From Methylovulum sp. (GTDB taxonomy: Bacteria; Pseudomonadota; Gammaproteobacteria; Methylococcales; Methylomonadaceae), in contig JAURZI010000153.1 in assembly GCA_030653435.1 (NCBI GenBank), forward strand, positions 1-63,922: a stretch of 63,922 nt of DNA. The letters run 5' to 3'. Position numbers and translations under genes: made by a program. Under the pieces are notes generated by a model that saw only the letters and a program-made list of their open reading frames with translations, ran no database searches and had not been told where the DNA came from. Below, in pieces: positions 5,278 through 49,687 of the stretch; positions within the stretch are counted from its first letter, which is position 1; the number at the start of each line of letters is the position of its first letter.

Positions 5278-6766
5278 CCTTATCACAAAAGACTACGGTC
5301 GGCCTAATCCATAGCCGCCTTTCCCAAAGCGCCGTCGTCAAAAAATAAATCAGCATCAGTGCGGCAGACAGCAGCCAAGGTTGCAGGCTGCTGTAAACCG
5401 CCGCATAGTCCCTGGCAAAATACAGTGCCAGGCCTAAGGCGATATAACCGCCCACGCGTTTGACATCGTAAGCCACCGGGTAATATTTTTGTCCTAGCCC
5501 ATAAGAGACGATTGCCATGCTGGCGTAACAGGCCAGCGTCGCCCATGCCGAACCGGCATAGCCCAGCAATGGAATCCACCAGATATTGAGCGCAATGGTC
5601 AGCAAAGCGCCGCCGACGGAAACGTATGCCCCCATCAGCGTTCTGTCCGTGAGTTTGTACCAGATAGACAGGTTGATATATACGCCCAGGCACAGATTGG
5701 CCAGCAATAGGATAGGCACGACGCCCAAGCCTGAGCGGAAGGGCTCACCAACAAAATATTTAAAGAAATCAATAAACAGTGTGACCAATAAAAAGATGGA
5801 CACGCAGAAAATGACAAAAAATTTAAGCACCTCGGCGTAAATCTTGCGTGCATCGGTTTTATCGGAATAGGCAAAGAAAAACGGTTCGGCGGCATAGCGG
5901 AAGGCTTGGATGAACAAGGACATCAGTATCGACAGCTTATAACAGGCGCTGTAAATACCGAGCATTTTCATATTGGTTGCCATGTCGTAAGGCAGCAGGT
6001 ATTTGAGGAGCGCGCGATCCAGCATTTCGTTGATAATGCCGGCAAACCCGACGACCGCCATAGGCAATGAGTAACGGAGTAATCGGGCGAAGACGATGCG
6101 GTCAAAGCCCCAGGCCAAGCCGGTCAACTGCGGTGCCAACACCAGGAACTTTAGGGCGCTGGCCAGCAAATTGGCAATAAAAACATAGCCCAGCCCTATG
6201 GTTGGCTGATAAAAATACAATAGCCCGGCGTCTGGGTGTTCTGCATGCAGCTTCGGGCAATAGACGATGAAAAACAAGCTTAAGGATACCGTGACGAGTA
6301 TTTCCAGCAACTTGATGCCGGCAAACCGGAAGGCCCGGTTTTCCGCCCGTAAACGGGCAAAAGGTATCGCCGCAACGGCATCCAGCGTCAAGATCACGCT
6401 AAACCACAATACATATTCTGGGTGGTCGGCATAATTCAGCGCTGCCGATAGCGGGGTGTTGAACAGCGCGATGCCGAGGATAAAACCGCTATTGACCAAT
6501 AAGACGAAGATTAATGCGGTTGAATACGTGACGTCCCGTCCAAGCTGCTGCTTGTCGCGGAAGCGGAAATAACCGGTCTCGAACCCGCACAGCAGCAGCA
6601 CGGAGAAAAAACCCGCATAAGCATAAAATTCCGAGACCACACCGTACTCTGCTGGCGAGAAATGGTAGGTGTACAGTGGAACCAGCAGATAATTGAGAAA
6701 ACGGCCGAAAATACTGCTGAGGCCGTAGATGGCCGTTTGCGAGGCCAGTTTTTTTAGAATACCCAT
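5273..6766 (-). CDS. Wzx-like polysaccharide flippase (MATE/MOP superfamily)
   Basis: The 497-residue protein is almost entirely membrane-spanning, with about 12-14 hydrophobic helices. Its N-terminus (KKLASQTAIYGLSSIFGRF) is the typical opening of O-antigen/exopolysaccharide flippases, which move undecaprenyl-linked oligosaccharides across the inner membrane. No glycosyltransferase or polymerase genes are adjacent, so it is a single gene rather than part of an O-antigen cluster; uppP, which recycles the lipid carrier, is 28 kb away. The substrate cannot be inferred. The start at 6766 begins the conserved N-terminus. Confidence 0.8.
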   Translation of the reverse strand: MGILKKLASQTAIYGLSSIFGRFLNYLLVPLYTYHFSPAEYGVVSEFYAYAGFFSVLLLCGFETGYFRFRDKQQLGRDVTYSTALIFVLLVNSGFILGIALFNTPLSAALNYADHPEYVLWFSVILTLDAVAAIPFARLRAENRAFRFAGIKLLEILVTVSLSLFFIVYCPKLHAEHPDAGLLYFYQPTIGLGYVFIANLLASALKFLVLAPQLTGLAWGFDRIVFARLLRYSLPMAVVGFAGIINEMLDRALLKYLLPYDMATNMKMLGIYSACYKLSILMSLFIQAFRYAAEPFFFAYSDKTDARKIYAEVLKFFVIFCVSIFLLVTLFIDFFKYFVGEPFRSGLGVVPILLLANLCLGVYINLSIWYKLTDRTLMGAYVSVGGALLTIALNIWWIPLLGYAGSAWATLACYASMAIVSYGLGQKYYPVAYDVKRVGGYIALGLALYFARDYAAVYSSLQPWLLSAALMLIYFLTTALWERRLWIRPTVVFCDKA

Positions 6767-6943
6767 CGGGTGTGTAGCCTGTATCCATGTGTAAAGTATC
6801 AGCGTGGTGCGGAATTATACATGAGCCGGTTCATAGGGCGTTGTTTCCGACAGCGCCCCGCACAGGCGTGTGTTTACCGGGCATCCTGCGTAGATGAGCC
6901 TGTGATGCGCGGGTGTAAGGCGTGCCCAGCGGGCTTGATCCAA

Positions 6944-8617
6944 TCAGAACAGCCCTGAAATCTTGCCATCATCGTCAATATCAATGCGTTCTGCGGCAGG
7001 CGCTTTAGGCAAACCGGGCATCGTCATCATATCGCCGGCGATGGCGACTATGAAACCGGCGCCGTTAGCCAGTCTGACATCGCTGATTTCCACGGTATGG
7101 CCGGAAGGCGCGCCCTTAGTGTTGGGGTTGGTCGAAAAAGACATCTGCGTTTTTGCCATGCAAATCGGGAAGCGTCCGTAATCGGCTTCCCAGGCCGTCA
7201 GCTGCGCCTTGACCTTGGTGCTGGCCGTGACGGCACCGGCGCCGTATAGCTTGGTGGCTATCGCGGTGATTTTGTCCCACAGGCTTAAACCCTCATCGTA
7301 AACATAGCTGAATGCCGGTGTGCGCTGGTCAACAAGTTCAGCAACCGTCAGCGCCAAACCTTCGGCTCCGGCTCCGCCTTGCGCCCAATGTTTGGAGACT
7401 ACGCAGGTTGCGCCCAGTACCGCGCATTTTGCTTGCAACAGGCTGATTTCCGCCTCGCTGTCATGCGTGAAATGGTTGATGCAGACGACGCAAGGCAAGC
7501 CGTAATGCTGGGTGATATTGTGGTAATGGCGTTCGAGGTTGGCAAAACCTTGCTCCAGTGCGGCAAGGTTCTCCTGGTTTAAGGCTTCTTTGGCAATGCC
7601 GCCGTGGAATTTTAACGCCCGAACGGTGGCGACGAGTACGACGGCAGACGGTGTCAGGCCGGACATGCGGCACTTGATGTCTATAAACTTTTCCGCGCCC
7701 AGATCTGCGCCGAAACCGGCTTCGGTGACGACATAATCGGCCAGTTTCAACGCTGTTTTGGTCGCCGTCACGGTATTGCAGCCATGAGCGATATTGGCAA
7801 ACGGGCCGCCGTGGATAATTGCGATATTGTTTTCCAGGGTTTGCACCAGATTGGGCTTGATCGCATCTTTCAGCAATGCGGCCATCGCGCCCTGTGCTTT
7901 CAGATCCCGCGCATAAACCGGTGTCACTTTGTCCGATTTATAGCCGATGACAATGCGACCCAAACGGTCTTTAAGGTCGGCGCGGCTGGTTGCCAAGCAT
8001 AAAATCGCCATGACTTCGGAGGCCACGACGATGTCATAACCGTCTTCACGCAAATAACCGTTGGCGATTCCGCCCATGCCGACGACGATATGGCGCAAGG
8101 CGCGGTCGTTCATATCCACGACGCGCTTCCACTGGATACGCCGGGGGTCTATATCCAGTTCGTTGCCGTGGTTGATGTGATTGTCGATCAAGGCGGACAG
8201 CAGGTTATGCGCCACGCCGATGGCGTGGAAATCGCCGGTAAAATGCAGGTTGATGTCTTCCATAGGTACAACTTGCGCGTAACCGCCGCCTGCGGCACCG
8301 CCTTTAACGCCGAAACACGGGCCTAATGAAGGTTCACGCAAGCACATGATGGTTTTTTTGCCGATACGGTTCAGTGCGTCGCCTAGGCCTACGGTGGTCG
8401 TGGTCTTGCCTTCACCGGCAGGTGTAGGGCTGATGGCTGTCACCAGTATCAGCTTGCCGTCGGCCTGATCTGCCAGGCTGTTGACATATTCCAACGACAA
8501 TTTGGCCTTGTAATGGCCGATAGGATCGAGGTGTTCGGCGGCTATGCCGAAGTGCTCATAAGCTAAGCCGATGATGGGTTTCATCGTGGCTTGTTGGGCA
8601 ATTTCTATGTCTGACAT
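6944..8617 (-). CDS. ftfL: Formate-tetrahydrofolate ligase
   Basis: The 557-residue enzyme (also called fhs) uses ATP to join formate to tetrahydrofolate, giving 10-formyl-tetrahydrofolate; in methylotrophs it feeds formate into the serine cycle. The ATP-binding loop [18 protein letters not shown] lies near residue 65, and the family signatures [14 protein letters not shown] and the C-terminal [15 protein letters not shown] are present. Length is normal. It lies on the same strand as glyA, gck and mtdA but is separated from them by a methyltransferase gene and by gaps of about 190 and 230 bp, so it probably has its own promoter. Confidence 0.97.
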
Positions 8618-39324: not shown

Positions 39325-39573
39325 TTAGGCGCTTGCCCGACGCTGATTTCCTGATAGATAATTACGCTGTTGCGTTAAATCACGCAGTCGGCGCGGGTCG
39401 CATTGGGAGCTAGCGGTTTCGGGAATCTATACCGCGTGAGTTGCTTTTACGTTGTATGTCGGAGCAATTACTTTGCGTCGATTAGCGCTTAAATAACATG
39501 TGCAGCAATGACATGTGCTGCAAATGGTAATAAAAAAATGTGCAACGCACATATAACCACTCAGGAGACTATC

Positions 39574-42255
39574 ATGGCTAACCAACCTACAGAGAATAAC
39601 GATACCCTCACCGCCGGACTTGGCATCAAAACCATTGATGGACTGGGTGGTGTGGACACTTTAATTATTGATTACAGCTCATTGACGCGCAATATCAATG
39701 AGTATTACCACCGCTTTTCTGACGACCGTTTCAACAGCGTTACGTGGTGGAATATCGAAAAATGGAACATCAGCGGCGGTTTTGGAGACGACACCTTCTC
39801 TGGCGGTACGTTGAACGACACGCTGTCGGGTGGTGCCGGGTGGGATGTCTTAACCGGTAATGGCGGTGTTGACCGTATTGATGGCGGTGCCGACATTGAC
39901 ACGTGGACGGATGATTTTTCCGCATTGACCAGCGCCGCGTCGGTTATTTTGACTGCCACTACCGGGGGAAATACAACGGCGGCCATTACTTTGGGCAGTT
40001 TGCCTGTGCCGACGGTGACCAATGTCGAAGCGCTGGTGTTGCGTACCGGTAGCGGTAACGACACGGTTTCTGTCGGCACACAGGCCTATAACGATGATAT
40101 TCGCACCGGTAGCGGCAACGACACGGTTAATGTAGGCAAAGGCGGTTCAGACTATGTTGACGGGGGTGCCGGTGTCGATTTGGGGGTGTTTGACTGGTCT
40201 GCCTCGATTGGCAATATTACTTTCGATCCTTACCGGGATGATTATTCGGATGGGCAGGGCCGCGCTGTTAATTTTGATAACATCGAACGATTCAATCTCA
40301 CTGGGGGCTTCGGCAACGATATTTTAGCCGGGGATGTTTACAGCGACACCTTGTTGGGCGGAGCTGGCCGGGATACCTTGTACGGCTATCGTGGCGCGGA
40401 CAGTATCAATGGCGGCGATGGTGTTGATGTGTGGAATGCGGATTACAGCTCTTCAACCGGCGCCATTAAAATTACGCTTACGGCAACGCTGGACATTAAT
40501 GAAGTCGTGAGCGGGATTAGCGGCGCATCGGTCAAGAATGTCGAGCGTCTGGCATTTACCTCCGGTTCCGGCAGCGATGTCATTTCGGCAGGAACGCTGG
40601 CCTATAACGACCGTATTTATAGCAACGGCGGCAACGATACCATTAATGTGGGCACCGGCGGTTCGGATTATGCTAACGGTGGTGACGGCACCGACACGGG
40701 TATTTTCGATTGGTCGGCGGCAGTTAATGATATTACCGTTGACCCGTATTGGGATGATTACTCTGACGGCGAAGGCCGCTATGTTGATTTTGATAATATA
40801 GAGCGCTTCAATTTAACCGGTGGCGGCGGCTATGACCATCTGGCCGGCGACGTTTATAGCGATACGCTGCTGGGCGGCGACGGGCGCGATACGCTACAAG
40901 GCGTTGCCGGTAGTGATTTCATTAACGGCGGTGCCGGTCTTGATGTCTGGCAAGCGGATTATCGTGCCAGCACGGGCGCCATTAAAGTCCAGTTGAGCGC
41001 GGCGGCGAATGTCAATGAAGTGCTGGGCGGCATTAAAAACGCCCAAGTGTATAGTATCGAGCGCCTGGATTTTTATTCAGGTTCCGGCAATGACCTGTTG
41101 TCTGCGGGCACATTCGCTTTTAACGACTGGATTTCCAGCGGTAGCGGCGACGATACCGTTAATGTCGGTACCGGAGGTGTGGATTACGTTAACGGTGGCG
41201 ATGGTTTGGATCTCGGACTGTTTAACTGGTCGAAGTCGGTTACTGACATCAGCGTTGACCCGTATTGGGATGATTATGCCGATAGCGAAGGCCGATCCGT
41301 CAATTTTGACAATATAGAGCGCTTCAATATCACCGGCGGTAGCGGTAATGACCATCTGGCCGGTGATTCGTGGAACGACACGCTGACGGGTGGCGATGGC
41401 AATGATTATTTAGATAGCGGCAGTTTCCGTGCCGACATCGAGTCGGCTAATGCGGATGTGGTTGACGGCGGGAAAGGCGTGGATTTTTGGTATGCAAATT
41501 TTTCCGCCAGCACAGAGTCAATCAATATTCTGCTTACCAACGCACCGAATGCAAATGCGGTACTGGGAGGCATTAGCGATGGTGTGACCAACGCAGTGGT
41601 CAAGAATGTAGAGCGCATGGAATTTATTGCCGGTTCCGGCAATGACGTCATCTCCAGCGGGTTATTCGCTTATGATGACCATATTCACGGCGGCGACGGC
41701 GATGATGCTATTGATGTTGGCGCTGGCGGCAGCGATTATGCCGATGGTGGCGCCGGTCTTGATGTGGGCAGCTTCGATTGGTCGGCTTCTACGACCAGCA
41801 TTAATGTTGATCCTTACTGGGATGAATATGCTGATTTGCAAGGACGTTATGCCAATTTCGACAATATCGAACGTTTCGATTTGACCGGTGGTGCAGGTAA
41901 CGACTATTTGGCTGGCGATGCGTATGCAGACACCTTGATAGGCGGCGCCGGTGACGATGAGCTGGATGCTTTTGGCGGCAACGATCAGTTAACGGGCGGC
42001 ATCGGTTCTGATATATTCGATATCAGGGCCAGCAGCGGCATTGATACCATCACCGATTTTACCGCAGGTTCAGGTGTCGGGGATGTCGTTCATTTTGTCA
42101 ACAACCCGTTCGACGCAATGAGTTTTGCCGTTATTCAGCAGCATATGAGCCAAGATGGCGCCGATACCCTGTTGACACTATCCGATACCGATACCATCCG
42201 TTTCGTCGGTGTTAGTGAGGGTGCTTTTGTTGCTGACGATTTTTGGTGGGCATAA
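39574..42255 (+). CDS. Large RTX-type repeat protein
   Basis: About 893 residues from ATG 39574 (MANQPTENND), supported by AGGAGACT six bases upstream. There is no signal peptide. The body consists of four clear copies, plus a diverged first copy, of a module of about 172-184 residues, each containing FDWS/FNWS, DPYWDDY, the block NFDNIERFN-TGG-GND and RTX-like repeats such as GGAGRDTLYGYRGADSINGG. The C-terminus ends in an RTX secretion-like region (IDTITDFTAGSGVGDVVHFV). A type I secreted calcium-binding surface or extracellular protein is expected. The product is highly acidic. No secretion genes are adjacent. Confidence 0.85.
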   Translation: MANQPTENNDTLTAGLGIKTIDGLGGVDTLIIDYSSLTRNINEYYHRFSDDRFNSVTWWNIEKWNISGGFGDDTFSGGTLNDTLSGGAGWDVLTGNGGVDRIDGGADIDTWTDDFSALTSAASVILTATTGGNTTAAITLGSLPVPTVTNVEALVLRTGSGNDTVSVGTQAYNDDIRTGSGNDTVNVGKGGSDYVDGGAGVDLGVFDWSASIGNITFDPYRDDYSDGQGRAVNFDNIERFNLTGGFGNDILAGDVYSDTLLGGAGRDTLYGYRGADSINGGDGVDVWNADYSSSTGAIKITLTATLDINEVVSGISGASVKNVERLAFTSGSGSDVISAGTLAYNDRIYSNGGNDTINVGTGGSDYANGGDGTDTGIFDWSAAVNDITVDPYWDDYSDGEGRYVDFDNIERFNLTGGGGYDHLAGDVYSDTLLGGDGRDTLQGVAGSDFINGGAGLDVWQADYRASTGAIKVQLSAAANVNEVLGGIKNAQVYSIERLDFYSGSGNDLLSAGTFAFNDWISSGSGDDTVNVGTGGVDYVNGGDGLDLGLFNWSKSVTDISVDPYWDDYADSEGRSVNFDNIERFNITGGSGNDHLAGDSWNDTLTGGDGNDYLDSGSFRADIESANADVVDGGKGVDFWYANFSASTESINILLTNAPNANAVLGGISDGVTNAVVKNVERMEFIAGSGNDVISSGLFAYDDHIHGGDGDDAIDVGAGGSDYADGGAGLDVGSFDWSASTTSINVDPYWDEYADLQGRYANFDNIERFDLTGGAGNDYLAGDAYADTLIGGAGDDELDAFGGNDQLTGGIGSDIFDIRASSGIDTITDFTAGSGVGDVVHFVNNPFDAMSFAVIQQHMSQDGADTLLTLSDTDTIRFVGVSEGAFVADDFWWA

Positions 42256-42294: not shown

Positions 42295-42332
42295 GGCCAT
42301 GCCGCCGTGCCGGAAAACACGGCGGCATGGCC
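42295..42332. terminator. Strong hairpin between RTX and cupin genes
   Basis: GGCCATGCCGCCGTG (42295-42309) and its reverse complement (42318-42332) form a perfect 15-bp, GC-rich stem with an 8-base loop (CCGGAAAA). It lies between convergent genes and should stop both transcripts, though there is no T-run. Confidence 0.7.
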
Positions 42333-42746
42333 TCAATCAGGCTGTTCAAAGGTCAGTTTTCTACCGACTGCGCCGGCATAAAATACCAAAATCTTCAAAG
42401 GTGTGGTGCCGACATTTCGACCATTGTGCGGTGTATTGACGACTTCAACCAAAGGGTCACCGGCTTGCAGATGTTTTATCCGGCCGTCTTTCAGCATGAC
42501 TTCCAAGGTCCCTTCCAAAATATAAGCAAATGATGGCAGGGGATGCAGATGCCAACCGGTTTCTTTGCCGGGTGCAATTTCCACCACCAGCCCGGTTATT
42601 TCGGGCTGTCCGACCGGATAGACGATCTGCTTGCCATCCCAGCTGCTGGTGGTTTTGACCAGTTGCGTAACTTTGGGCTTATCCTGGTTTTGGGCCGAAA
42701 CGCCCAACGGTGTCAACAAACATAAAACCATCAATATAAAACGCAT
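42333..42746 (-). CDS. Exported cupin-domain protein
   Basis: The 137-residue protein has a signal peptide (cleavage after VSAQ, about residue 18) and one cupin fold with metal-ligand-like histidines: GWHLHPLPSFAYILEG is the first motif and PLVEVVNTPHNGRNVG the second. Its substrate is unknown. It is the third gene of the ANTAR-GAF-cupin unit, 10 bp after the GAF gene, so it probably shares their transcript. Confidence 0.8.
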   Translation of the reverse strand: MRFILMVLCLLTPLGVSAQNQDKPKVTQLVKTTSSWDGKQIVYPVGQPEITGLVVEIAPGKETGWHLHPLPSFAYILEGTLEVMLKDGRIKHLQAGDPLVEVVNTPHNGRNVGTTPLKILVFYAGAVGRKLTFEQPD

Positions 42747-42756
42747 CTTACCTACT

Positions 42757-43680
42757 CTAAAATAAAAAAGTGACTATGGCTTTTAAATGACCGCAGGTTA
42801 TCACGGGAATGGCCAGCATGGTGCTTAAATTATCCAGTTCGGGGCGGTAACCGGACTTATGCCCGCCGGTAATCACCGGCATGCCGGTCAGCCAGACCCG
42901 GCCTAGTGCGCCTTCGCCTTTGTTGACGCTAATGGTTTCAAAGAGTTGTGCCAGTTCATTGCTGTTTTTGCTGTAACCCTGCTGGCATATCAGTCGTTCG
43001 CCCTGAGGATCGGGTATCCAGATTTGTATGCGTTTGGCGATAGGCGTGGCTTTTGCCGATAGAAACGTCATGATGTAAGTGAGCCCGGCGTGGTCGGAAA
43101 TCGGGATGCCCAGGCAGGTGGTGATGCCAGCCCGTTGGGCTTCTATACCCCGGACAAACACGTCCGGCTGTCCTATGTCTTCCATCAGTGCGGGCATGCC
43201 GGATTCCCAGACCATTCCGGGTATGCCTTGGCCTCTGGGCATATTGATTTGTCTGGATAGCTGTTCAAAATGGTGCAAAGTGCCATAATAGCCATCAACC
43301 ACATGCAACAGGTCCGGGTTTGCCGTATCGTTGCCCCATACTTCGATGGCGCCGGCGTGCTCCTCGTCATCGCCGCATAAAAACATGACCACAGCCAGCA
43401 GAAAATCGCCGGAAAATATCGGGATGGCAATGCCGCAGGTTAAACCGGCTTTTTTTGCTGCGGCGGTCCGCTTAAAGTAGGAATGTTCAAATTCCGTCAG
43501 CATGATAGGGTGGCCTTGCGCCCAGGCTTTGCCGGGCAAGCCTTCATTGTAGGCAAACCGCTGCTGTTCGCTGGCAGTTTTAAATTCGGTGAAGGCGCCA
43601 TATAAACCGGAGCCGAATTCCAACTGGGTGCGCTCTTTGTCTGGAATCCATATTTCAGTAACCTTGATAAACGTTTTCAT
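42757..43680 (-). CDS. Triple-GAF sensor protein
   Basis: The 307-residue soluble protein consists of three consecutive GAF-like repeats of about 100 residues each and nothing else: repeat one has EIWIPD, GLPGKAWAQGHPIML and CGIAIPIF; repeat two has AIEVWG, GIPGMVWESGMPALM and CLGIPIS; repeat three has QIWIPD, GALGRVWLTGMPVIT and LAIPVITC. No kinase, cyclase, HTH or membrane part is present. Such stand-alone GAF proteins bind small ligands and usually pass the signal to a partner. The partner is probably the ANTAR protein encoded 20 bp upstream on the same strand, as NasS partners NasT. Ligand unknown. Confidence 0.75.
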   Translation of the reverse strand: MKTFIKVTEIWIPDKERTQLEFGSGLYGAFTEFKTASEQQRFAYNEGLPGKAWAQGHPIMLTEFEHSYFKRTAAAKKAGLTCGIAIPIFSGDFLLAVVMFLCGDDEEHAGAIEVWGNDTANPDLLHVVDGYYGTLHHFEQLSRQINMPRGQGIPGMVWESGMPALMEDIGQPDVFVRGIEAQRAGITTCLGIPISDHAGLTYIMTFLSAKATPIAKRIQIWIPDPQGERLICQQGYSKNSNELAQLFETISVNKGEGALGRVWLTGMPVITGGHKSGYRPELDNLSTMLAIPVITCGHLKAIVTFLF

Positions 43681-43700
43681 GGGTGCGGTGATTGGGTAAC

Positions 43701-44267
43701 TTATTTGAGTAATTCGGCCATTGCGATGACATTTTTGGCCATTTCTCCCAGCGTGATATTTCTGTCCATCGCCAGTTTTCTTAACGTGTGATAGGCCTCG
43801 TTTTCGGTGAAATTGCGGGTCTGGATTAAGATGGCTTTGGCGCGGTCGATTTGCTTACGGTCTTCCAGTTGCACACGGGCTGCTTCGAGCGCAGTTTTAA
43901 GGGATTGTTGTTGCTTGAAACGGGCGATAGCGACGTGAATAATGCTGGCGAGCCGCTTATAGGCCAAGGCATCGACGATGAACGCGCTGACTTCGGCTTT
44001 AATGGCCTGATTGATGGTGTCTATCGTGCTGTCAGCGGCAAACATCACCACCGGCAATGGCGATTGCTGGTTGAGGCTGTGCAAATCGGACAGTATTTTT
44101 TCAGTGGGCGAGTCCAGGTTGAATATAAGGACATCGGGTTTGTTTTCTTTAACCTGTTCAAATAAGGCGCTGTACGGTGTTTTCAGGCAACTGAAACCAT
44201 AGCCGTTAAGGCTGTTTTCCAGTAAGGTATTATCAACATTGCTTTCAATCAGTAAGACATTAAGCAT
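43701..44267 (-). CDS. ANTAR-domain RNA-binding response regulator (NasT/AmiR-like)
   Basis: The 188-residue protein has an N-terminal receiver-like domain (about 1-118) with a candidate phospho-acceptor D52 in IFNLDSP, but the acidic pocket is reduced to LLIESN and the usual C-terminal lysine is not evident, so it is a degenerate or ligand-controlled receiver. A short coiled coil (about 118-135) leads to the ANTAR domain (about 136-185; DRAKAILIQTRNFTENEAYH, MDRNITLGEMA), which in NasT and AmiR binds paired hairpins in leader RNAs and prevents termination. It is first in the ANTAR-GAF-cupin unit and divergent from the membrane cytochrome gene. Confidence 0.88.
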   Translation of the reverse strand: MLNVLLIESNVDNTLLENSLNGYGFSCLKTPYSALFEQVKENKPDVLIFNLDSPTEKILSDLHSLNQQSPLPVVMFAADSTIDTINQAIKAEVSAFIVDALAYKRLASIIHVAIARFKQQQSLKTALEAARVQLEDRKQIDRAKAILIQTRNFTENEAYHTLRKLAMDRNITLGEMAKNVIAMAELLK

Positions 44268-44327
44268 ATTTGTGTCGGCATCAGTAAAAATCTCAACAGT
44301 TAGGCCTGTCTGTGCTAAAGGCGTTGG

Positions 44328-44345
44328 TGCACCAACGGTGGGGCA
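44328..44345. promoter_or_regulatory. NtrC-like site upstream of the ANTAR gene
   Basis: TGCACCA-ACGG-TGGGGCA resembles the NtrC consensus TGCACCA-N3-TGGTGCA with one extra spacer base and one substitution. It overlaps the palindrome CGTTGGTGCACCAACG. It lies 60-80 bp from the ANTAR start codon and about 150-170 bp ahead of the predicted start site of the cytochrome transcript. Confidence 0.4.
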
Positions 44346-44460
44346 TGGGGATGATCATTCAAAATTAAATAAGCAATTGCGATGCCATTATGTTTTTGGC
44401 GGGCGTATTCAGGTTTGTCGCTAAAAATTAAAGGTTATATCCTGGGAACCGGGCATATGC

Positions 44461-44485
44461 TGCACCAGTTTGGCGCATATTCTGC
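44461..44485 (+). promoter_or_regulatory. NtrC-like site overlapping a sigma-54-like promoter
   Basis: TGCACCAGTTTGGCGCA (44461-44477) differs from the 17-bp NtrC consensus by one base. Overlapping its right half, TGGCGCATATTCTGC (44471-44485) has the sigma-54 GG/GC pair at exact spacing. The overlap would let bound NtrC block the promoter, while the upstream site could activate it. The transcript would start near 44497 and run toward the monoheme cytochrome gene. Confidence 0.45.
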
Positions 44486-44537
44486 TCATTCCACAGATTA
44501 ACGGGGTGCTGACAGGCATGTTATCAGCGATCAGGCA

Positions 44538-44670
44538 TGGGCATAAAAAATGCTTCGATTCAGGTATATGTGGGGCTGAACAGCTAATATGCTGCGCGAC
44601 GGCAATTCGGCAATGATGATGACACCTGCAAGGGTTATACTTATCCGATAACATTAGCGGTTTATGCCCA
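44538..44670 (+). other. Long-range inverted repeat in the cytochrome leader
   Basis: TGGGCATAAA (44538-44547) and TTTATGCCCA (44661-44670) are exact reverse complements 113 bases apart in the untranslated leader. They could close a large RNA domain. The ribosome binding site (AGGTGAG, about 44704) lies outside it, so direct masking is not implied. Confidence 0.35.
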
Positions 44671-44713
44671 GAATTCATAGTATTTTTAACGCTTCATTCC
44701 CACAGGTGAGATT

Positions 44714-45619
44714 ATGACAGTCAAGTACACGCCCTTAAAAGACCACGATACCCCGATTAAAGTATTATTTACGGGTTATCTTTGTACCGTAGGGATAGGT
44801 TATTTCTTTGCACTCATGCAGATATTGTTCACACACGGCATGGCGGACGGTAAATTCGGCTTGTCGGTCGATGATATTGTTTACAGTTATTACGGCAACC
44901 GCTCCGGTACGGTAATGGAAAACCAGCTCAATGGCGCGATGAAGGCCAATGCCTCGGCGCAAGAACGTTTTGACATTATCGAATGGGTCCGTAACGGGGC
45001 CGATGAAGACGACTATAAGGACGATGGCATTGAGAAAATCATTGAAGAGCGATGCGTGATGTGCCATAACGAAGCCGCTTCCGGCCTACCTAATTTTAAG
45101 GATTTTAAGCAGTTAAAGGCATTGACGGCAGAAGATAAGGGCGCGACGTTTGCGTCATTGACGCGGGTCTCGCACATCCATTTATTTGGCATCAGTTTTA
45201 TCTTTATGTTTGTCGGCCTCATCTTTAGCTTCGCAGAGACCACGACTACCCAATACAAGTGCATTGCCATCGGCATGCCTTATGCCTTCCTGATTGCCGA
45301 TATCTTGTCCTGGTGGCTGACCAAAATTCACCCGATGTTTGCGTGGCTGGTGATTTTTGCCGGTATGGGCATGGGTATTTCGTTCATGTTTATGTGGGTG
45401 ACATCCATTTTGGAAATGTGGTTATACAAACCTGTCTTCGTCAACGGCATCGGGACGCGGTATTTGCAATGGCGGGATAGCGAGGATGCGTCGTCGGTGG
45501 ATAAATTGTGGCTATTTGCCAAAAGCTTAGCCGCCCAGGCTAAACCCGCCGCCGCTTATTTAAGTGATTTGTGGTTGGCCCATGCCTGGCCGCTTGTTAA
45601 AGGTTTGTTTAAAAAGTAG
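44714..45619 (+). CDS. Monoheme membrane cytochrome c protein
   Basis: The 301-residue protein has one N-terminal membrane helix (about 17-40), a periplasmic domain of about 110 residues with a single haem c motif CVMCH (114-118), then three membrane helices (about 156-175, 185-204, 207-237) and an amphipathic tail. Histidines 154 and 156 at the start of helix two (RVSHIHLFG) could ligate haem. I do not know a characterised homologue; electron transfer between the quinone pool or membrane and a periplasmic acceptor is inference. It is monocistronic, has AGGTGAG as ribosome binding site, and sits behind a sigma-54/NtrC-like promoter and a long leader. Confidence 0.75.
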   Translation: MTVKYTPLKDHDTPIKVLFTGYLCTVGIGYFFALMQILFTHGMADGKFGLSVDDIVYSYYGNRSGTVMENQLNGAMKANASAQERFDIIEWVRNGADEDDYKDDGIEKIIEERCVMCHNEAASGLPNFKDFKQLKALTAEDKGATFASLTRVSHIHLFGISFIFMFVGLIFSFAETTTTQYKCIAIGMPYAFLIADILSWWLTKIHPMFAWLVIFAGMGMGISFMFMWVTSILEMWLYKPVFVNGIGTRYLQWRDSEDASSVDKLWLFAKSLAAQAKPAAAYLSDLWLAHAWPLVKGLFKK

Positions 45620-47905: not shown

Positions 47906-48220
47906 TTATTTAATGAAAGAACAGCAGTAATCGGTAGCTGTGTTGATTTTTACCGTAAATCGGGCATTAGCGGGGACAGCAAACGATTCGCCGCTTTTAA
48001 TCGCTTGCCATTGTTCGCTGCCGGGCAATAAGACCTCAAGATCGCCGTCGATAATTTCCATCAGCTCTTCGTCCGCCGTGTTAAAGGTATACTCGCCCGG
48101 CAACATAAAGCCCAGGGTTTTTAACGAGCCGTCGGCAAAACGAATAGTACGGCTGCTGACATTGCCGCCGAAATAGACATTGGCTTTTTTGACGACGGAT
48201 ACGTTATTGAATTCTGGCAT
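47906..48220 (-). CDS. ppnP: Pyrimidine/purine nucleoside phosphorylase PpnP
   Basis: About 104 residues from ATG 48220 (MPEFNNVSVVKKANVYF), with AGGACAAATC as ribosome binding site; the upstream extension is not family-like. It is a small cupin-fold enzyme that splits nucleosides with phosphate; conserved stretches include TLGFMLPGEYTFNTADEELM, LPGSEQWQAIKSGESF and the C-terminal VPANARFTVKI...DYCCSF. Length matches the E. coli protein. Confidence 0.93.
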   Translation of the reverse strand: MPEFNNVSVVKKANVYFGGNVSSRTIRFADGSLKTLGFMLPGEYTFNTADEELMEIIDGDLEVLLPGSEQWQAIKSGESFAVPANARFTVKINTATDYCCSFIK

Positions 48221-48406
48221 GATTTGTCCTGTTATAAGGGGATAAAAAGGGAGCGCAATGATAGCAGATTGTTTGGCGCTTGTTGTGTTTAGAGTGGCAT
48301 GGGGCCAGATAGATATTGACATTCATAGGGCATTAAACGATAATCATTCCTATTAGCAAATATATCTATATGTTTTAATTAGCTTAAATACTAAAGGATG
48401 TCAGCC

Positions 48407-49687
48407 ATGATCGCAAAGCCAGCCCTTTCCATCGCCTTATTGTGTTTTAGTTTTACCGCTCAGGCTCAAACTAAGCTGACCCAAGAACAGCAATTGGGCA
48501 GGCTTTTATATCAGGATAAAAACCTGTCAACCAACAGGAACCAGTCTTGTGAAACTTGTCACGCCCTAACCGGTATCAGTCATGATGCTACCAGCCAATC
48601 AACCCCCGCCTTTGTCGATCCGCAAAACAGCAAAAACGGTACGCCGGTTTCTTTAGGTTCAATCCCTTACGCAACCGGTACATTAAATGCGCCTAGCGCC
48701 GGTTATGCGGCATTCAGCCCGATCTTCCACTGGGATGAAACAGAGGGGCTTTATGTTGGCGGCCAATTCTGGAATGGCAGGGCCGCAGACTTGGTCGCGC
48801 AAGCACAAAAGCCTTTTTTAAATCCTGTGGAAATGGCCATGCCTAATGAATGGGCGGTTGTTAGCCGGTTAAAGGAAAATGCAAGATATGCCCGTTTGTT
48901 TTTGAACCTTTACCAGCTTGATTTGAATGCCGTGCCGCATATCAAGGACGCACTTTTCCAGCAACAAGCGCCCGAAGTGGTCAGCGACATTTTTCAGCAT
49001 GCAGCGCAAGCAATAGCTGCATTTGAAAAAAGCGCGGAGTTCAATAAATTCAATTCGAAATTTGATTATGTGATGGCGGGCGTGACCCGTTTTACGGCAC
49101 TTGAGCGGCAGGGCTTGGCGCTGTTTAATGATGAGCAAAAGGGCAATTGCGCCGCGTGCCACCCTAGCAATATAAGCACCGACGATACCGGTAAGAAAAT
49201 CCCGCCCTTATTTACTGATTTTACCTACGATAATATCGGCTTGCCGCGTAACTTAAACATTCCGGGAACTCCAGAGCCTGATCTGGGTTTGGGTGGTCGG
49301 GCGGACATCCGCAAGATCGATCCTGACCGGGCCGAACTAGGCAAACACAAAGTCATGTCGTTACGCAATATCGCCATTACCCCGCCTTACGGCCACAATG
49401 GCGTTTTTGCGACGCTGGAACAAATCACCCATTTTTATAATACCCGCGACACCTTAGCTGCAGTGCCCGATAATCGAAGCCCAGGCTTCGGCATTTCCGG
49501 CTGGCCGAAACCTGAGGTCGGCAAGAATGTTAATCATGACGAACTGGGAGATTTGGGGCTGACCGCTGCCGAAGAAAAAGCCATAGTCGCGTTCATGAAA
49601 ACCTTGACGGATGATTATCCTGAATGGGGTAACGATCCCTCTGTGCCGCCTGGAACACAGTCCCCTTTTACAGTCGATATTCAGTAA
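48407..49687 (+). CDS. Dihaem cytochrome c peroxidase / MauG-like protein
   Basis: About 426 residues from ATG 48407 (MIAKPALSIALL), the start with AAGG at proper spacing; an ATG nine bases upstream lacks one. A signal peptide ends near QAQT (residue 20). Two haem c motifs are present, CETCH (48-52) and CAACH (248-252), with the conserved Trp/Pro region SLRNIAITPPYGHNGVFATLEQ. The family includes bacterial cytochrome c peroxidases and MauG cofactor-building oxidases; the sequence does not decide between them. No mau or other partner genes are nearby. Confidence 0.88.
   Translation: MIAKPALSIALLCFSFTAQAQTKLTQEQQLGRLLYQDKNLSTNRNQSCETCHALTGISHDATSQSTPAFVDPQNSKNGTPVSLGSIPYATGTLNAPSAGYAAFSPIFHWDETEGLYVGGQFWNGRAADLVAQAQKPFLNPVEMAMPNEWAVVSRLKENARYARLFLNLYQLDLNAVPHIKDALFQQQAPEVVSDIFQHAAQAIAAFEKSAEFNKFNSKFDYVMAGVTRFTALERQGLALFNDEQKGNCAACHPSNISTDDTGKKIPPLFTDFTYDNIGLPRNLNIPGTPEPDLGLGGRADIRKIDPDRAELGKHKVMSLRNIAITPPYGHNGVFATLEQITHFYNTRDTLAAVPDNRSPGFGISGWPKPEVGKNVNHDELGDLGLTAAEEKAIVAFMKTLTDDYPEWGNDPSVPPGTQSPFTVDIQ

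Follow-up and report, generated by a model that had tools for sequence, protein, structure and literature searches.

Which genes does an ANTAR-domain regulator control, and what restrains it, when its gene is followed by one for a stand-alone triple-GAF protein? The question is raised by a 63,922-nucleotide stretch of DNA from Methylovulum sp. (assembly GCA_030653435.1, contig JAURZI010000153.1), which is referred to here, as a whole, as the window. Its minus strand encodes an ANTAR protein of 188 aa (43701–44267), a triple-GAF protein of 307 aa (42757–43680) and a cupin (42333–42746), separated by gaps of 20 and 10 bp; opposite them lies the gene for a membrane protein with one CVMCH motif. 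All four open reading frames (ORFs), listed in a preliminary description of the locus, are confirmed. That description proposed a nitrogen-linked switch with the membrane cytochrome as its output. Of this, the sequence supports a nitrogen-linked ANTAR switch in which a separate triple-GAF protein occupies the position of the sensor NasS; it does not support the cytochrome as output, and the predicted targets in the window's own genome are nrtA and nirB, on other contigs. The ANTAR protein probably switches on nitrate uptake and nitrite reduction. We consider it likely that the triple-GAF protein replaced NasS as the sensor that holds and frees the ANTAR protein of a leader switch before nrtA and nirB, and the targets of this switch make nitrate or nitrite the likeliest ligand.

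Leader RNAs before nitrate-assimilation genes

NasS–NasT is the nitrate/nitrite antitermination system of Paracoccus, Azotobacter and Bradyrhizobium. The two proteins come apart in the presence of nitrate or nitrite, and the leader of nasA is bound by NasT (PMC3795266). Targets of ANTAR antiterminators have been defined by two hexaloop hairpins with A at loop position 1 and G at position 4 (A1/G4), one of them excluded by the terminator (PMC3369931, PMC8934654). An Rfam scan of the window and three leader-bearing loci gave no family at the gathering threshold, so a leader was sought in the intergenic regions before nrtA of relatives. The leaders found there consist of two hexaloop hairpins (A at loop position 1, G at position 4), then GACAAAGGCGTC, then a terminator with a T run, and GACAAAGGCGTC is invariant across 15 aligned leaders. 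In the 15-leader alignment, 11 of 23 pairs are changed on both sides and 93.9% of cells are paired, either value being reached in 0 of 500 shuffles; when further pair types were counted, 13 of 500 shuffles reached the observed value. Shifting the pairing by 1–3 columns leaves at most 56% of cells paired, a result that is partly by construction, as the structure was derived from the alignment on which the pairs were counted.

A covariance model built from the relatives' leaders (R1; hexaloop hairpins and terminator) matches the window's genome at C154:12587–12704 (87 bits), where the next gene is nrtA, and at C123:59295–59404 (69 bits), where it is nirB. In both leaders there are two A1/G4 hexaloop hairpins, one of which the terminator excludes; in the nrtA leader, the second hairpin shows up under a looser stem rule and is missed by a stricter one. 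No further match at E ≤ 1 was found in this genome among the 150 of 1121 first-look candidates that were scored. In the window, where every position was scored, the six matches (E 4–8, best 9.1 bits) are noise.

Under stricter filters, the model matches 79 places in 56 of 121 genomes of the order Methylococcales. These include all 20 genomes that encode a full-length relative of the triple-GAF protein (GAF genomes), 13 of which contributed to training; G000, G028, G032, G108, G015, G106 and G094 gave none. The next ORF, taken as the longest ORF starting within 1.2 kb, was traced for 57 of the 79 places, the two in the window's genome included. It is nrtA at 34, nirB at 12, narK-like at two (one with only 32% identity), nasS at one, a methyl-accepting chemotaxis protein (MCP)-type chemoreceptor at two, an EAL-domain gene at three, another gene at three and a cytochrome at none; nitrate/nitrite genes lie downstream of 49 of the 57. 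Gene names follow NCBIfam, with ntrCD and NirB above cut-off and ntrB below it, and EAL and MCP were named by Pfam. NrtA reaches broad families only (SsuA, NMT1_2) and is named from its operon. At the transporter/reductase loci, the outer-membrane gene reaches Alginate_exp and the nasA gene is nearest several molybdopterin reductases, all under cut-off.

The window's ANTAR protein is a predicted NasT-like antiterminator acting in trans, because the leaders precede nrtA and nirB on other contigs, scores in the window are at chance level and none of the 57 traced leaders precedes a cytochrome. ANTAR-domain proteins are present in 85 of the 121 genomes. Only one was found in each of four genomes of the window's genus (G028, G032, G078 and G108), alongside two or three leaders; the window's own genome has two.

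The same leader also precedes other types of genes. In genus g3 (L070:7604–7726, L070:10811–10931, L071, L073), it lies before an EAL-domain gene at three loci and an MCP-type chemoreceptor gene at two, which suggests nitrate control of cyclic di-GMP turnover and taxis in some g3 genomes. A match at L205:3346–3452 (E 3e-4) lies in a genome without a detected ANTAR-domain protein (G110), and the ORF that follows it is not one of the nitrate genes.

Partners of the ANTAR protein across the order

The 20 GAF genomes all belong to the window's family (Methylovulum, Methylobacter and relatives). Short GAF-domain matches in six more genomes, all NasS-type, lie inside frames of about 1300 residues and were excluded from the count. 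The preliminary description expected all four gene types of the locus to occur together in relatives. This expectation fails, and what recurs is the pair: an ANTAR relative is present in 20 of 20 GAF genomes, the cytochrome is divergent in only five of these, and among the loci examined the cupin lies beside the pair only here. The ANTAR and GAF genes are adjacent in 15 of the 20 genomes (14 co-directional, one end to end). Among 28 named loci, the ANTAR gene is directly upstream of the GAF gene in 25 of 25 Methylococcales loci with upstream sequence; of the remaining three, one is cut at the gene and two are from Sulfuriferula and an unclassified proteobacterial metagenome-assembled genome (MAG), at 46–50% identity. 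The two genes form a conserved pair, and their association is not due to chance. A nitrate-transporter cluster (nrtA and followers) or nirB is near the pair in 14 of the 20 genomes (20-kb neighborhoods, clustering), the window's genome being among the six without, and nrtA or nirB is present at 21 of the 28 named loci.

NasS-type proteins, defined by at least 55% identity to the NasS of G037 (L116), occur in 28 of the 121 genomes, and none of these is a GAF genome. The NasS-type matches include one with two internal stops (G033) and one fragment (G111). The 20 GAF genomes have a match to NasS of 42–50%, which we assign to NrtA because it is placed behind a nitrate leader or in a transporter operon where checked; G074 has weak partial matches in addition. 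The sole NasS match of the window's genome is NrtA, with an N-terminus that by eye resembles a signal peptide.

A third arrangement occurs in two other genera of the window's family, g5 and g2 (L096–L106, L117, L204). There, a gene for a NarK-type transporter (294 bits against the NCBIfam NarK family cut-off of 312) directly precedes the ANTAR gene, overlapping or abutting it, at 13 of 13 loci examined, of 16 such genomes, and neither a NasS-type nor a GAF protein was found in the 16. A transporter-coupled antiterminator is possible in these genera. In family f7 (L186–L192), the leader and then nrtA come after the ANTAR gene; neither a NasS-type nor a GAF match was found in this stretch, and the receiver has Val at the phospho-acceptor position.

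The ANTAR protein consists of a pseudo-receiver and an ANTAR domain (43725–43883, minus strand; Pfam E 1.6e-17), and no NIT domain was found by Pfam scan. The receiver is a weak Pfam match (E 1.5e-5, 25.6 bits versus a cut-off of 30.2). The preliminary description was correct that its acidic pocket is incomplete: by HMMER alignments to KdpE, EutV-type and Rv1626-type chains, and by the rows of its clade, the phospho-acceptor Asp is replaced by Asn50 (codon at 44118–44120, minus strand). In this column, Asp is present in 14 of 14 NasS rows and Asn in 29 of 31 GAF, 5 of 6 g3 and 13 of 13 NarK rows (34 of 37 for GAF and g3 together), with Val in 7 of 7 f7 rows. No kinase gene was identified in 42333–45619 from ORFs and Pfam. 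The window's ANTAR protein aligns over its full length with NasS-neighboring ANTAR proteins of the same order, mostly at 33–36% identity (28% in G051). In a maximum-likelihood tree of 73 rows (31 GAF, six g3 GAF, 13 NarK, 14 NasS, seven f7 and two from other families), the GAF, g3, NarK, NasS and f7 groups are each set apart by a single branch, and GAF and g3 group jointly with support of 98/90; for the NasS-labeled rows L202 and L203, the NasS gene is about 9 kb off in the same genome and not adjacent.

The triple-GAF protein matches Pfam GAF_2 in three stretches (E 1e-18), which we divide into GAF1 (43369–43680), GAF2 (43051–43368) and GAF3 (42760–43050), all on the minus strand. Sequence profiles give weak GAF matches only. 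In an AlphaFold2 model (mean predicted local distance difference test score, pLDDT, of 86.2; residues 274–284 below 50), the secondary-structure pattern is that of three successive GAF-like units. Its fold matches in the PDB include cyclic-nucleotide GAFs, plant MYC/EGL3 domains, the GAF of the NifA-like nlh2 (rank 22) and NitrOFF1 (rank 37), a nitrate sensor descended from NreA. Within our own domain limits, 48 of 104 residues of GAF1, 43 of 97 of GAF3 and 28 of 106 of GAF2 are invariant in 26 Methylococcales rows. The two homologues from outside the order share 67 and 60 of 104 residues with the window's protein in GAF1, 52 and 49 of 106 in GAF2, and 36 and 36 of 97 in GAF3. Because GAF1 and GAF3 are more constrained than GAF2 and the outside homologues keep GAF1 best, GAF1 may read the ligand and GAF3 may be adapted to the ANTAR partner.

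The lineages also differ in their leaders. The core GACAAAGGCGTC, with GAC and GTC around the loop AAAGGC, is itself a hexaloop hairpin, the 3' half of which doubles as the terminator's 5' arm. This is the mutually exclusive hairpin/terminator arrangement described for EutV, whose antitermination fails once the spacing of its two hairpins grows by 20 nt (PMC8934654). A hairpin inserted between the outer ones is therefore no trivial change. We entered 28 GAF-class, 21 NarK-class, 24 NasS-class and seven f7 leaders. Among those with the core, two canonical A1/G4 hairpins lie upstream of it in 15 of 23 GAF-class, 9 of 21 NarK-class, 0 of 22 NasS-class and 0 of 6 f7 leaders, and in 2 of 3600 shuffled upstream stretches; one canonical upstream hairpin is present in 16 of the 22 NasS-class leaders. 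Not all leaders follow a simple three-hairpin pattern: 5 of 28 GAF-class leaders do not have the exact core, 8 of the 23 that do have it show at most one canonical hairpin upstream, and there is no canonical upstream hairpin in 8 of 21 NarK-class and 5 of 6 f7 leaders. Many GAF- and NarK-lineage leaders carry three predicted hexaloops, versus two in the NasS class. A search of open PubMed Central papers on ANTAR hexaloop or tandem-hairpin leaders, judged by title and by the opening of the abstract, turned up no report that we recognized as describing a leader with three hexaloops.

We tentatively suggest that the ANTAR nitrate switches of Methylococcales have swapped their sensor, with a NasS-type protein in some families, a triple-GAF protein in Methylovulum, Methylobacter and relatives, and a NarK-type transporter perhaps holding the antiterminator in g5 and g2. 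The loss of the Asp and the third hairpin would accompany this exchange, which we regard as possible, if somewhat short of probable.

Proposed mechanism and alternatives

In the mechanism that we propose, the ANTAR protein would bind the hexaloop hairpins in the 5' leaders of the nrtA operon and the nirB nitrite/nitrate reductase cluster, elsewhere in the genome, and hairpin binding would block the intrinsic terminator such that transcription reads through. When no signal is present, the triple-GAF protein, standing in for NasS and probably made from the same transcript, would hold the ANTAR protein. A ligand, most likely nitrate or nitrite, would bind the GAF array and free it. Holding and release are proposed because the NasS–NasT complex behaves in this way (PMC3795266), and control by a partner, not by phosphorylation, because the receiver has lost its Asp. 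The case is built from sequence (the leaders with their covariation and their location ahead of nrtA and nirB, the conserved ANTAR–GAF gene pair, the exclusion of NasS and the change from Asp to Asn); RNA binding by the ANTAR protein, its binding by the GAF protein, the direction of control and the ligand are what we infer. If correct, it would mean that the sensor of a thoroughly studied nitrate switch based on RNA can be replaced as a module, and that these bacteria have a GAF receptor in the cytoplasm, for nitrate or some other nitrogen signal, that needs no kinase. The mechanism would also indicate how these methane oxidizers may decide on nitrate uptake, with exact RNA targets predicted.

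The predicted switch resembles NasS–NasT in the response-regulator-like N-terminus of the ANTAR protein, in leader hairpins and a terminator before nitrate-assimilation genes, and in a sensor gene that often adjoins the ANTAR gene, this neighbor being NasS-type in other families of Methylococcales. It differs in that the sensor candidate is a triple-GAF protein rather than an NrtA-like NasS, in the lost phospho-acceptor and in the three hexaloop hairpins, instead of two, of many leaders. Klebsiella NasR likewise mediates ANTAR-domain antitermination of nitrate assimilation on a hexaloop leader (PMC3369931), but as a single protein with a NIT domain fused to ANTAR, whereas two proteins and GAF domains are involved here. 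In Mycobacterium, the GAF-bearing sensor PdtaS controls the ANTAR regulator PdtaR (PMC8131098); however, PdtaS acts as a histidine kinase that phosphorylates PdtaR. Phosphorylated systems of the EutWV and PdtaSR type have a kinase partner and a receiver Asp; the window's ANTAR protein lacks this Asp and has no kinase gene beside it. NreA of Staphylococcus, too, is a free-standing GAF protein and signals nitrate to a regulator (PMC8139620), although it acts on the kinase NreB and the window's protein is under the NreA model cut-off. No report of a GAF partner of NasT was recognized in the titles and abstract openings of open PubMed Central papers on ANTAR, NasS–NasT and methanotrophs.

Several observations weigh against the proposed mechanism. 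The ANTAR protein of the sister NarK lineage can apparently work without a GAF partner, because neither a NasS-type nor a GAF protein was found in that lineage. In five of the six g3 genomes, the GAF gene does not adjoin the ANTAR gene (the two are 3.7–10 kb apart or on different contigs). No ANTAR gene is present in the available flanks of the GAF homologues of Sulfuriferula and the unclassified MAG; therefore, partnership with an ANTAR protein is not inherent to the GAF protein. The NreA cut-off is reached by none of the GAF domains of the window's protein (NCBIfam NF038250: 12.7 bits, E 0.082, cut-off 175 bits), and the best PDB folds of this protein are generic GAFs. The R1 search of the window's genome covered only part of the first-look candidates.

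Some of these points favor a GAF protein that is a co-transcribed, nitrogen-related sensor with another job, while the ANTAR protein works on the nrtA and nirB leaders without it. We consider this quite unlikely, since the GAF protein occurs together with a single ANTAR clade (20 of 20 genomes) and never with NasS (0 of 28), and the genes are directly adjacent in 15 of 20 genomes. Alternatively, the same ANTAR switch may operate with a GAF array that senses general nitrogen or redox state, either 2-oxoglutarate, or nitric oxide (NO) or a metal via Cys82 and Cys102. GAF domains of NifA sense 2-oxoglutarate. All 28 rows have Cys102 and 27 of the 28 have Cys82, nlh2 and NitrOFF1 are both generic fold matches, and the GAF domain of PdtaS senses NO and Cu by a dicysteine motif and controls an ANTAR regulator (PMC8131098). 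Such a ligand is nonetheless unlikely, as the NasS–NasT systems whose published signals were considered here answer to nitrate or nitrite (PMC3795266, PMC6759348) and the traced targets are mainly for nitrate uptake and nitrite reduction.

A canonical phosphorelay, with phosphorylation of the ANTAR protein by a histidine kinase that the GAF protein only tunes, would parallel NreA, a GAF nitrate receptor that acts on a kinase (PMC8139620). In the second ANTAR regulator of the window's genome, the receiver is complete (93 bits in Pfam; by eye, Asp and Lys are retained), and a PAS histidine kinase gene adjoins its gene. The window's ANTAR protein, however, has Asn at the phospho-acceptor, as is dominant in its clade, and no adjoining kinase gene, so a phosphorelay is very unlikely. 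The output proposed in the preliminary description, the cytochrome via its own leader, gains from the proximity of the genes: the cytochrome gene is divergent from the ANTAR gene in 5 of the 20 GAF genomes, and in 9 of the 20 one copy is no more than about 10 kb away from the ANTAR, GAF or nrtA gene, which may point to a shared nitrate-related role. It is extremely unlikely as the output, and was rejected as a switch target, given the chance-level scores in the window, the lack of a real R1 match upstream on the cytochrome strand in 30 cytochrome loci scanned (window included) and the 0 of 57 traced leaders. Moreover, 95 of 121 genomes have between one and four matches to the family, and G072, in which no ANTAR protein was found, is one of them.

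Cytochrome, cupin and neighboring genes

The membrane cytochrome (301 aa; 44714–45619, plus strand; family unnamed) has one CxxCH motif (CVMCH, residues 114–118) and, by a simple scan, three hydrophobic segments; it passes no Pfam cut-off. In the 446-bp divergent region between it and the ANTAR gene (44268–44713), the best R1 score is 8.4 bits (E 6), and neither an A1/G4 hexaloop hairpin (strict stem rule) nor a terminator-like site was found. Upstream on the cytochrome strand at the 30 loci, the only R1 signals are two weak ones (18.9 and 10.7 bits), which are the reverse strand of strong leaders that face the other way. On this evidence, the cytochrome is an occasional neighbor with no predicted RNA switch. 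In G015 (L111:5004–5909 and 6506–7906), a cytochrome gene is divergent from nrtA, with the nrtA leader between them, a further case of the cytochrome next to nitrate genes.

The cupin (Pfam Cupin_2, E 5.1e-15) has a signal-peptide-like N-terminus by eye and looks exported. Close relatives (53–59%) were found in 5 of 60 other genomes of the family, with no GAF or ANTAR gene in their flanks of 0.1–1.5 kb, and on these grounds the cupin was rejected as a functional member. Among the loci examined, it is a local bystander, beside the pair only in the window. The ANTAR, GAF and cupin genes probably form a single transcript with the cupin last. An intrinsic terminator-like hairpin of 17 pairs lies 3' of the cupin (42295–42332, minus strand); it has by far the longest stem of four terminator-like sites in the region, where 4.6 are expected from shuffles.

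Beyond the cupin, the window encodes a 915-aa protein with RTX-type calcium-binding nonapeptide repeats (39508–42255; Pfam PF00353), and a member of the same cluster adjoins the GAF gene in L072 too. At 47906–49687, a gene for a Ppnp-type nucleoside phosphorylase adjoins one for a diheme cytochrome, which is related to the MauG/MbnH families and under the MbnH cut-off.

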